Assembly (NCBI GenBank): GCA_021806885.1
Contig: JAKAPT010000009.1
Location: forward strand, 1-36,345
Direction of reading: 5' to 3'
DNA length: 36,345 bases
From: a bacterium
GTDB lineage: Bacteria > SZUA-79 > Acidulodesulfobacterales > Acidulodesulfobacteraceae
Below are positions 31,336 to 36,345 of the stretch, piece after piece (within the stretch, counting starts at the first letter, position 1; each line of letters starts with the position of its first letter). The position numbers were made by a program, and so were the translations under genes. The notes beneath the pieces were generated by a model. It did not search any database, was not told where the DNA came from, and was given only the letters and a program-made list of their open reading frames with translations.

Positions 31336-31353
31336 TACGATAATATTATTGTA
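31336..31353. promoter_or_regulatory. Near-perfect 18-bp palindrome touching the recD2 start codon
   Basis: TACGATAATATTATTGTA has one mismatched pair (G/T). It overlaps the A of the recD2 ATG and follows a TATAAT (31322-31327), so it would sit at the transcription start. It may be an operator or a start-region hairpin; not demonstrated. Confidence 0.4.
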
Positions 31354-33734
31354 TGGAAGGGGAAAATATAACTATAACCGGCGTTATAAAGCGGGTTGTA
31401 TTCAGAAATAACGAAAACGGTTTTTCGATTCTAAATATTTTCTCGGACGGCCGGTCTCTAACCGCCTCCGGTACTTTCTTCGATACCCCCATTCCGCAAT
31501 CAAAGATCACCCTGACAGGAAAGTTCTCCCACCATAAGAAATACGGCCTTCAATTTGCCTTCGAAACATACGAGATTTTTACTCCTGGTTCCAGGACATC
31601 TGTAATCGAATATCTTTCCTCAAGCGTTTTTAAGGGTATAGGAAAGTCGCTCGCATCCGAGATTTATGACTCTTTTAAAGAAGACACTATCGATATAATT
31701 GATAATTTTCCCGAAAGGCTTAAAGATGTAAAAGGGATTGGAAACGCTAAGTTCGAGAGCATTGTAAAGGGCTTGAATGAAAGCAGGGGTTTCAGGAAAG
31801 CGATAATGTTTTTCAAGCCCTATCAGTTCAGCGATTATCAGGTCAAAGTAATTTATGAAAGGTTTAAGGATGCATCCGTAGCCGTCGCAAAAAATAATCC
31901 ATATTTATTCACAGAAATCAGAGGTATCGGTTTTAAAAAAGCGGATATCATGGCGCAAAAACTTGGAATCAAAAAAGACGATGCTCACAGGGTCAAAGAA
32001 GCCTTAATCTACTCCGTCAGGGTTCTATGCGAAAACACGGGAAATTCCTTTGTATACTTGAGGGACATTAAAGTTATTTTTGATGATATTATCGAAGGTT
32101 CGGGAGATTTTGGCAATATGGAAATCAATGGGGGTCCTGCGGCGTTAGGATCTGGTACGGATATTACAGGGGAAATGGATTTAAAACCATTCTTAAATGA
32201 ATTAAAAAATGAGAAAAGGCTTATTTTTGAGATTGAAAACGGCTCAAATCTCGAAAGAATATACCTGCCAGCCTATTATTATGCCGAAACCGGCGCGGCC
32301 AGGGAGATTAACAGGATCGTTTCCGTAAAAATGGATGATAAATTAAATAAAATTATGACCCGTTACAAAGAAAAAAAGGAGGATTTTCTCGTTGAATTAA
32401 CCGCGGAACAAAAATATGCCGTCCTGAACGCTCTTAGCCATAAAATTTCTATAATTTCGGGAGGGCCGGGAACAGGAAAATCTACTGTTATAAAGGAAAT
32501 CGTGGAATTATATTCAGGCCGGAAGGTTGCCCTTTGCTCCCTTTCGGGCAAGGCCACTCAAAGGCTTTCGGATATCCTTGGTAATAATATTTCACCCGGT
32601 GTTTCTATTTCTACTATTCACCGGCTTTTGGGCGCGAGATTTTCCGGAAAAGGGAACGATGGAGAATTGAGGGAGGATTCCGCGTATTTTTCTTATGACG
32701 AGAATAACAGGCTTCCTTTTGACCTTATAATCATAGATGAGATGAGCATGGTTGATATCATGATATTTTACAGGCTTCTCAAGGCCGTAAAGGATGAAAC
32801 CGTCCTTGTGCTGGTGGGGGATGTCAACCAGATACCGTCCGTAAACCCCGGGGACGTCCTCAGGGACATTATATATTCTGATTCCATGGATCCTTACAAG
32901 TTAAAGCCCGTTTTTCCCCTTACTTTTCTGACCAGGGTTTTCAGGCAGGCAGAGGGTGGTCTTATAAATATTAATGCCCAGAACATCCTTAAAAATGAAA
33001 AATTTATATTGTGTAAAAAAGATGAAAACTCATGCGAGTTCAGGATTTTTTATAAAAAAGACTACGATTACAAGGAATCCGGAAAAAAAGCCCTTCTGGA
33101 CGACTTGGAGGGTTTCATAAAAAAAGTCGCGGAAAAAAGAAAAAAGGCAAATAACGGGATTATAAACCCGGCCATGATGAAAGACGTGCAGGTACTTACG
33201 CCCATGAAGAGAGGCGAACTGGGGTATTATAACCTGAATAATATTCTGCAGGATATTATGAATCCGGGGCCCGCCGCCCTTGAGGACTGTTTTAAATGTA
33301 ACGGTATAGAATTCAGATCCGGCGACAGGGTGATTCAGAGAAGGAATAACTATGATACAGATGTTTTCAACGGTGATAGCGGGATTATTATCGAAATCAA
33401 CCATTCCGAAAAAAAAGTTATAATCGATTTTTCCGCTGGCACGGACGGTTCAAAAATAGTGGAATATGGTTTTATCGACACGTATGATAATATTGCGCTT
33501 TCTTACGCCCTTTCAATCCATAAATCGCAGGGAAGCGAGTTCGATAATGTAATCATATTGTTCCATCAATCCCACTATATGATGCTAAAAAAGAACCTTC
33601 TTTATACGGCCGTAACGAGGGGAAAGAAAAACGTCGTAATCTTTGGAACATATAAGGCCTTCGGAATGGCGCTGAATTCCAGGGAGGATTTGAGAAATTC
33701 GGGGTTTAAAGACAGGCTTTACGCGACTAAATAG
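31353..33734 (+). CDS. recD2: ATP-dependent DNA helicase, RecD2-like
   Basis: The 793-aa superfamily 1B helicase has the RecD2 layout. An N-terminal OB-like part (ITGVIKRVVFRNNENGFSIL) is followed by helix-hairpin-helix segments (KGIGKSLASEIYD, KGIGNAKFESIV and RGIGFKKADIMAQKLGI) and a two-domain motor. Walker A is SGGPGTGKST with Lys376. Walker B is LIIIDEMSMVD with Asp462 and Glu463. VGDVNQIPSV is motif III, YALSIHKSQGSEFDNVII motif V and YTAVTRGKKNVVIFG motif VI. RecD2 is a 5'-3' helicase acting in genome maintenance without RecBC. Slightly longer than usual because of a Lys-rich insert near residues 565-600. No nuclease partner is near. Confidence 0.93.
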   Translation: MEGENITITGVIKRVVFRNNENGFSILNIFSDGRSLTASGTFFDTPIPQSKITLTGKFSHHKKYGLQFAFETYEIFTPGSRTSVIEYLSSSVFKGIGKSLASEIYDSFKEDTIDIIDNFPERLKDVKGIGNAKFESIVKGLNESRGFRKAIMFFKPYQFSDYQVKVIYERFKDASVAVAKNNPYLFTEIRGIGFKKADIMAQKLGIKKDDAHRVKEALIYSVRVLCENTGNSFVYLRDIKVIFDDIIEGSGDFGNMEINGGPAALGSGTDITGEMDLKPFLNELKNEKRLIFEIENGSNLERIYLPAYYYAETGAAREINRIVSVKMDDKLNKIMTRYKEKKEDFLVELTAEQKYAVLNALSHKISIISGGPGTGKSTVIKEIVELYSGRKVALCSLSGKATQRLSDILGNNISPGVSISTIHRLLGARFSGKGNDGELREDSAYFSYDENNRLPFDLIIIDEMSMVDIMIFYRLLKAVKDETVLVLVGDVNQIPSVNPGDVLRDIIYSDSMDPYKLKPVFPLTFLTRVFRQAEGGLININAQNILKNEKFILCKKDENSCEFRIFYKKDYDYKESGKKALLDDLEGFIKKVAEKRKKANNGIINPAMMKDVQVLTPMKRGELGYYNLNNILQDIMNPGPAALEDCFKCNGIEFRSGDRVIQRRNNYDTDVFNGDSGIIIEINHSEKKVIIDFSAGTDGSKIVEYGFIDTYDNIALSYALSIHKSQGSEFDNVIILFHQSHYMMLKKNLLYTAVTRGKKNVVIFGTYKAFGMALNSREDLRNSGFKDRLYATK

Positions 33735-36075: not shown

Positions 36076-36086
36076 CCCTTAGGGCT
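36074..36086 (+). other. Small hairpin after the EAL gene stop codon
   Basis: AGCCC-TTA-GGGCT overlaps the TAG stop. No T-run follows, so it is a poor intrinsic terminator. GCCCTTAGGGCTTA differs by one base from GCCCTTCGGGCTTA inside the downstream repeat unit, suggesting a shared origin. Confidence 0.5.
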
Positions 36087-36345
36087 TATTGAGTAAAGGA
36101 CATGGTTGACATAATGGTTTTTAAATGGCGGAGAGAGAGGGATGAGCGTCCTTAAGGACGCTAAAAGCGGCGAACCCTCGGACGCCCTTCGGGCTTAGGG
36201 TTCTCATCCAAATATCCGTTATTGAGTAAAGGACATGGTTGACATAATGGTTTTTAAATGGCGGAGAGAGAGGGATGAGCGTCCTTAAGGACGCTAAAAG
36301 CGGCGAACCCTCGGACGCCCTTCGGGCTTAGGGTTCTCATCCAAA
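36086..36345. repeat. Tandem direct repeat, 133-bp unit (two copies, second cut by the window end)
   Basis: Copy 1 is 36086-36218 and copy 2 is 36219-36345; all 127 shared bases are identical. The bases before the copies differ (C and G), so the identity starts exactly there. Each unit contains TTGACA (36106 in copy 1), a GGAGAGAGAGGGAT stretch, a perfect palindrome AGCGTCCTTAAGGACGCT (36145-36162), and a second stem GAACCCT/AGGGTTC (36172-36178 with 36197-36203) capped by GCCC-TTC-GGGC. GGATGA (36140-36145) pairs with TCATCC (36204-36209), closing a three-way junction. No ORF of note lies inside. On the minus strand it resembles a tRNA-Ser 3' half. Confidence 0.92.
36127..36203 (-). other. 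tRNA-Ser-like 3' half with an insert in the T loop (inside repeat copy 1)
   Basis: Reading the minus strand, a type II variable-arm-like hairpin GCCCGAAGGGC (36094+100 region, 36184-36194) is followed by GTCC. Then comes a T-stem GAGGG with loop start TTCG, about 27 nt of extra sequence containing the AGCGTCC palindrome, the loop end AT, and the 16-mer CCCTCTCTCTCCGCCA. That 16-mer equals a T-stem strand (5), acceptor strand (7), discriminator G and CCA. The acceptor strand TCTCTCC and the G discriminator fit serine tRNAs. No matching 5' half, D arm or anticodon arm is present, so this is not a working tRNA. The same structure recurs in copy 2. Confidence 0.5.

Follow-up and report, generated by a model that had tools for sequence, protein, structure and literature searches.

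A tandem array of putative tRNA-linked repeats at a contig end in an Acidulodesulfobacteraceae genome

We analyzed a stretch of 36,345 nucleotides (the window), which is the whole of contig JAKAPT010000009.1 (C7) in a draft genome (1.38 Mb, 82 contigs, 99.6% complete) of the family Acidulodesulfobacteraceae. The contig ends in a tandem repeat that is real and belongs to a known, poorly understood class, the tRNA-linked repeats (TLRs). We are confident that the array as a whole is a TLR array, and the best overall explanation, which we hold to be highly probable, is that its units lie 3' of a tRNA-Ser(GCT) gene just outside the contig end. The units are tandem copies of the 3' end of a tRNA together with its 3' flank, joined by a fold-back junction. 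The junction is composed of the local T-arm reverse complement, an apical hairpin (X1), the T-arm 5' strand and a second insert (X2) at the T-loop position; therefore the 3'-end copy can form part of a helix resembling the T/acceptor arm, its CCA-type end left free.

Anatomy of the repeat unit

Tandem Repeats Finder (TRF) detected one array, at 36086-36345 (period 133, 2.0 copies, 100% matches), with direct repeats spaced 133. It occupies the final 260 bases of the contig and, because the contig stops within it, its copy number is a minimum. On the minus strand, the unit consists of an A+T-rich spacer (49 nt), GGATGAGAACCCT, AAGCCCGAAGGGCGTCCG, AGGGTTCG, CCGCTTTTAGCGTCCTTAAGGACGCTC and ATCCCTCTCTCTCCGCCA, in this order (Table 1). 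GGGTTCG, the 27-nt insert and ATCCCTCTCTCTCCGCCA together make up a tRNA-Ser 3' end split in the T loop, the letters being TGGATGAGAACCCTAAGCCCGAAGGGCGTCCGAGGGTTCG, CCGCTTTTAGCGTCCTTAAGGACGCTC (27 nt), AT and CCCTCTCTCTCCGCCA. A perfect inverted repeat (I2, 36145-36162) lies within X2, and 36197-36209 pairs with 36171-36178 and also with 36140-36146 (inverted repeats, fold). Because the spacers of relatives repeat the 3' flank of their own tRNA, the spacer at 36210-36258 is presumably a tRNA flank copy as well.

A sequence-only reading of this DNA had described 36127-36203 as resembling the 3' half of a serine tRNA with an interruption in the T loop, and had suggested, as one option, that the unit derives from a tRNA. 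The minus-strand letters agree with that description, although the unit is larger than the interval and also takes in the T-arm reverse complement. The derivation is likewise correct: the last 18 nt of the unit match, at 18 of 18 positions, those of two intact genes on contig C52 of the same genome, tRNA-Ser(TGA) and tRNA-Ser(CGA). Both contain the exact 16-mer singled out by that reading, which is kept among the copies here and in relatives; a 16-nt match is expected by chance about 6e-4 times (4^-16 x 2.75e6; 1.38 Mb, both strands). An Rfam scan of the unit returned no known RNA family, and a weak match to a plastid-UTR family (E 0.33) was taken as chance.

Table 1. Features of the array and its neighborhood (coordinates in the window)
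Feature	Position	Strand	Basis or remark
Full TLR unit, 133 bp	36126-36258	minus (sense)	TRF period 133; direct repeats
Second TLR unit, 5' part (spacer) lost at contig end	36259-36345	minus	identical to 36126-36212
Partial repeat: 40-nt spacer remainder beyond last unit	36086-36125	minus	identical to 36219-36258
tRNA-Ser 3' end: ATCCC (T loop/T stem 3' strand), acceptor 3' strand, G and CCA	36126-36143	minus	
X2, 27-nt T-loop insert with hairpin P3 (AGCGTCC-TTAA-GGACGCT)	36144-36170	minus	
T-arm 5' strand, AGGGTTCG	36171-36178	minus	sequence; alignment A1
Apical hairpin X1, AAGCCCGAAGGGCGTCCG	36179-36196	minus	sequence; consensus fold, 29 units
Modified T-arm reverse complement, GGATGAGAACCCT	36197-36209	minus	inverted repeats I8, I11; fold
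A+T-rich spacer	36210-36258	minus	presumed copy of the flank of the unassembled tRNA-Ser(GCT)
RecD2-type helicase gene	31353-33734	plus	Pfam; in relatives convergent neighbor of tRNA-Ser(GCT)

tRNA genes associated with the repeats

The T stem of the window unit, GAGGG, is that of the GCT and GGA tRNAs, and its acceptor letters differ from those of this genome's GGA tRNA. tRNA-Ser(GCT) is the sole serine isoacceptor not found in this assembly. In relatives, a RecD2-type helicase gene converges on the array at all nine GCT loci with matches (tblastn), and no RecD2 match was obtained at the tested CGA, TGA and GGA loci; the window has the order RecD2 gene, GGDEF-EAL gene, array. Given the missing isoacceptor, the GAGGG T stem and the RecD2 synteny, tRNA-Ser(GCT) most likely sits just past 36345.

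Similar units follow the three located tRNA-Ser genes of this genome, as well as its Tyr, Asn and Gln(TTG) tRNAs, so that the T-loop break recurs 3' of tRNAs other than the one matched in the window. The latter three tRNAs each carry two units of 91-93 bp, which end in GATCACGACCG(A/C)AGGGAGTC-ATCC...CCA (here and below, a hyphen before ATCC marks the junction) with the 3' end of their own tRNA. About 30 other non-Ser tRNA genes of this genome were checked over about 1.5 kb, or as far as the contig reached, and none had an additional tail. On contig C71 (2850-2992; L003, L042) lies a 3' half derived from tRNA-Arg(ACG). It holds two inserts, a hairpin-rich one in the loop of the anticodon arm and another in the T loop; the intact gene is on a different contig, and its flank is repeated at the copy. 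A Ser-specific element was dropped as an explanation, as Tyr, Asn and Gln units and this Arg-derived copy exist.

Next, the family was surveyed with the T-loop break as a pattern (GGAGAGNGAGGGATGAGC, one mismatch allowed). It was present in 20 of 30 family genomes, including this one, and in 3 of 31 others, with one match across all genomes for the reversed-pattern control. TLRs are present in about two thirds or more of a non-enterobacterial family of metagenome-assembled genomes (MAGs), two of which are labelled Deltaproteobacteria. At sense-orientation loci, an intact tRNA-Ser is directly followed by one to four units, and four of four isoacceptors are affected. The units of relatives end in the last 17-18 nt of their own tRNA and repeat its 3' flank. 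An intact tRNA-Ser precedes the units in 39 of 47 distinct cases and tRNA-Gln(TTG) in 8 of 8, at loci that were mostly picked by pattern. A T-loop tRNA intron was dropped as a candidate, since relatives have an intact gene of the same isoacceptor beside the array and units that have no 5' half.

The same plan was observed in four more gammaproteobacterial genomes, fetched with another pattern, at Ser, Gln and Tyr tRNAs. A GTDB contig scan added several Sedimenticola strains or MAGs, one Saccharibacteria-named record and one Uhrbacteria-named record. Counts obtained with the pattern AGGGN{0,14}GAGTCATCC.. in Gammaproteobacteria and relatives are lower bounds, because it misses AGGGAGTC.

Several loci depart from the simple layout. 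On contig C52 (8150-9030; L004, L041), whole tRNA-Ser(CGA) pseudo-copies lie beside the intact tRNA-Ser(TGA) and tRNA-Ser(CGA) genes, with an assembly gap between the copies; each bears two 20-nt inserts that are alike in kind, the T loop holding GAGCTTCGCTGACTGCGTTC and the anticodon arm being followed by GAGCTACGCTGAACTCCGTT. A 5'-half tRNA copy with hairpin-rich inserts was found upstream of an intact tRNA-Ser(GCT) (L130 3556-3756), so partial tRNA copies occur on the 5' side too. In L084, L103, L110 and L042, the loops of some units hold a larger nested hairpin (GTAAGCAGGCGTTTAC..AAAGC..GCTTTTGTG.CTGCTGAAGTG or similar), resembling a small palindromic element in its own right. At L097 (6367-6660), the spacer of unit 2 after tRNA-Ser(TGA) is unlike that of unit 1 and like those at other tRNA-Ser genes, which may reflect unit exchange between loci. 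The tRNA-Ser(GGA) array is divided over two contig ends, with the tRNA on C13 (78-167) and a unit on C11 (1-91) that has the same acceptor letters. TLR arrays thus seem to be the cause of several breaks in this assembly.

Relation to E. coli TLRs and conservation of the fold

TLRs have been known in E. coli since 1978, and their function is not agreed (PMC8144298). E. coli K-12 has 22 copies at ten loci (Egan & Landy 1978; Rudd 1999; summarised in PMC8144298). TLRs are recognized by their last 18-19 bp, which equal the end of the tRNA or rRNA gene before them; the window unit has such a match over 18 nt, and the number of units per locus (at least two in the window, one to four in relatives) falls within the one to five of the class. 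Outside the window, in relatives and behind other tRNAs of this genome, the matching gene was seen directly upstream of the units. E. coli units and those of the window share a plan of spacer, reverse-complement T arm, X1, T-arm 5' strand, X2 in the T loop, and 3' strand of T and acceptor stems with CCA. In E. coli and in relatives of the window's genome, the 3' end repeats that of the upstream gene; one to several tandem units, the last one partial, are common to the E. coli and window arrays.

The E. coli tyrT/V repeats read ...GGGGAAGGATGAGAAGCTTCGAC(T/C)AAGGTTCGA, hairpins and GCTGAGTAATCCTTCCCCCACCACCA. The lysT/W/Y/Z repeats have the terminal ..GAGTC-ATCCTGCACGACCCACCA, and those of lysV and lysQ contain GATTCGAACCTGC, which reverse-complements the T arm of tRNA-Lys exactly, followed by AGCAGGTTTGAG, hairpins and GAGTC-ATCC. 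Both the tyrT and lys repeats thus have the fold-back and the T-loop insert, with GAGTC-ATCC at the end of the lys ones. By contrast, the repeats described here occur in an unrelated family, at Ser, Gln, Asn and Tyr tRNAs and with other inserts, of the GCTC-ATCC type at Ser. Because the plan and the GAGTC-ATCC or GCTC-ATCC junction are shared, the window units and the E. coli TLRs are likely of common nature, by which we mean plan and junction, not descent of the inserts.

RtT RNA (Rfam RF00391), which is processed from the E. coli tyrT transcript, has the same architecture, including GGATGAGAA in the reverse-complement arm, but is 178 bp compared with 133 bp for the window unit. The RrA, RrB and RrF small RNAs of the E. 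coli rrn operons also belong to the TLR class and lie 3' of a stable RNA gene, between dual terminators; they differ in being linked to 5S rRNA and in binding CsrA and Hfq (PMC8144298). No TLR was visible downstream of this genome's 5S gene; in E. coli, searching with a 16-nt tail taken from the 5S end as annotated did not recover the rrfB TLR. The between-terminator layout was observed outside the window: terminator, TLR and terminator follow one another at E. coli lysV and lysQ, in two Sedimenticola MAGs, and in the Saccharibacteria and Uhrbacteria records.

The fold was examined in an alignment of 29 family units (A1). The T-arm fold-back is kept, with a C-G to U-A exchange tracking the local tRNA. 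X1 pairs are flipped from G-C to C-G in 11 units, and the consensus fold contains two-sided changes in P2 and X1 pairs. Several pairs of the X2 hairpin P3 also have two-sided changes in relatives; 93.5% of P3 cells are paired over 11 distinct helices, as against 75% in shuffles (max 88%), with related sequences counted as independent. These values were counted by a script, as RNAalifold on A1 missed P3 because MAFFT misregisters two P3 types. Relative to shuffled sequences, the sense strand of the window unit folds with z scores of -2.6 to -2.7 and the plus strand with -1.2; the score was -4.4 for a relative with an extended outer stem and -3.4 for an E. coli lysT-type TLR.

Constraint is also apparent between loci. 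A 20-nt non-tRNA core of the Gln, Asn and Tyr units is 99% identical, and their spacers have 40% ungapped identity. Local derivation is indicated by the T-stem letters of the reverse-complement arm, which track the adjacent tRNA in 34 of 38 units, the others differing in layout; the arm is of the CGAG type at GAGGG tRNAs and of the CGG type at GGGGG tRNAs. The non-tRNA motif (GAAGGG..GAGTC-ATCC or GCTC-ATCC) is common to E. coli, Sedimenticola and the window's family.

Origin, possible role and significance

Units would arise and change number, which is variable between loci, through local tandem duplication and homologous exchange, not through movement of a foreign element. They may further act as RNA. 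Read-through of the tRNA transcript would give precursors in which the 3' end of each unit is trimmed as that of the tRNA is, yielding small structured RNAs at a level proportional to tRNA transcription. In E. coli, three rRNA-linked TLRs are transcribed by read-through, processed, and bound by Hfq and CsrA, and the level of rrn TLR RNA was measured to follow transcription of the linked stable RNA (PMC8144298); there, the terminator-TLR-terminator layout of the rrn operons yields TLR RNAs by read-through. By analogy, functional read-through RNA is our best guess for TLRs, unproven and tentatively held.

Several observations weigh against the explanation as a whole, TLR array and RNA role together. 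The window units are known from sequence, with transcription only predicted; the gene that would head the array falls outside the window; and no terminator-like site was found near the array, unlike in the read-through layouts elsewhere. The RtT covariance model, which matches the E. coli tyr and lys TLRs as a positive control, gave no match in the window up to E = 5. A short Gln-type unit folds no better than shuffles (z +0.2), and quasi-palindrome correction can also yield compensatory changes without selection. The sole starvation phenotype reported for E. coli TLRs was retracted, and the effects of rrn TLR deletion are modest (PMC8144298).

The main rival to a functional RNA, which we regard as a serious possibility, is functionless tandem duplication by replication slippage or template switching at the T-arm hairpin; the fold-back and inserts would be side effects, their similarity maintained through gene conversion with the tRNA and correction of quasi-palindromes. 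Such an origin fits the varying copy number, the partial last repeats, the inclusion of flank or terminator in the repeat and the whole pseudo-tRNA-Ser copies with inserts (L004, L084). However, it sits poorly with an identical layout at different tRNAs in several distant lineages, with the conservation of the non-tRNA motif across E. coli, Sedimenticola and this family, and with a core conserved though spacers diverge. It also leaves the distribution to be explained, as four of four Ser isoacceptors are affected in the family whereas most other tRNAs of this genome have no units.

Mobile-element explanations fared worse. The sequence-only reading had considered repeated attachment sites and the leftovers of a T-loop-inserting element; neither is supported, as 3' ends and T-stem letters match whichever tRNA is local, be it Ser, Gln, Asn, Tyr or Lys, and the tandem repeat includes the tRNA's own 3' flank and, in several genomes, the terminator. 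An insertion sequence or attachment-site array was accordingly rejected in favor of TLRs with repeated host flank. Integration often takes place at tRNA genes, and many partial copies of such genes stem from integrated elements (PMC9897764), yet it is very improbable that the units are leftover attachment sites of prophages or integrative elements whose interiors were deleted. This origin is in large part refuted because the DNA between the copies is repeated host flank, not foreign DNA; the tandem copies are exact, and the same fold-back occurs in many lineages. No integrase was found between or beside units: among the matches listed, the closest integrase domain is 4.6 kb from an array, next to a tRNA-Pro, and most arrays have none on the same contig. 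None of the listed integrases was bounded by tRNA 3'-end repeats.

It is also improbable that the units are folded single-strand recombination sites mimicking the tRNA T arm, each unit being an empty cassette. Like integron attC and CTX-phi attP(+), in which an imperfect hairpin mimics a duplex recombination site, the folded strand mimics a duplex T arm, with one hairpin extra, and the spacer of unit 2 in L097 resembles a foreign cassette. In a Sedimenticola thiotaurini MAG, an integron-type (IntI) integrase gene (L130 4149-5258; TIGR02249 over cut-off) directly follows a tRNA-Ser(GCT) and TLR array; this is probably a coincidence, because the integron-integrase model exceeds its cut-off in three Sedimenticola genomes only, out of 17. 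Unlike in those systems, no attC box (R'/R'', GTTRRRY/RYYYAAC) was seen by eye in the window unit, nor GTTRRRY at the expected place in the L130 unit; there are no gene cassettes, and no genes at all between units. The window's family has no dedicated integrase, as the model stayed below cut-off in the ten genomes tested, and its integrase domains lie at least 4.6 kb from arrays among the matches listed. The integron reading, prompted by the L130 gene, was dropped on the model results and these distances.

With respect to the open-access literature searched, the new elements are how widely TLRs are spread among taxa, with members in other Gammaproteobacteria including Sedimenticola and in two candidate-phylum bacteria, how many kinds of tRNA carry them in a single genome, and a building rule stated explicitly; earlier non-enterobacterial reports may exist. 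The one detailed account found covers E. coli and Enterobacterales and gives TLRs no known function (PMC8144298). Nearly all the TLRs found here share one anatomy with those of E. coli. A bolder idea, which we consider unlikely, is that TLRs make up a class of fold-back RNAs that is widespread in bacteria and templated by tRNAs, each member being made from the T arm of its own tRNA, and that their conserved GAAGGG..GAGTC-ATCC (or GCTC-ATCC) element would be bound by a conserved tRNA-processing or -sensing factor, so that tRNA transcription would be read out as small RNA.

TLR arrays would account for assembly breaks and missing tRNA-Ser genes in MAGs of this kind. The occurrence of the same plan in this family, in Gammaproteobacteria and in candidate-phylum bacteria provides independent lineages for asking what is constrained. 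An unexplained repeat of E. coli thus becomes a testable comparative problem, in terms of core versus spacer, the match to the local T arm and the terminator-TLR-terminator layout.
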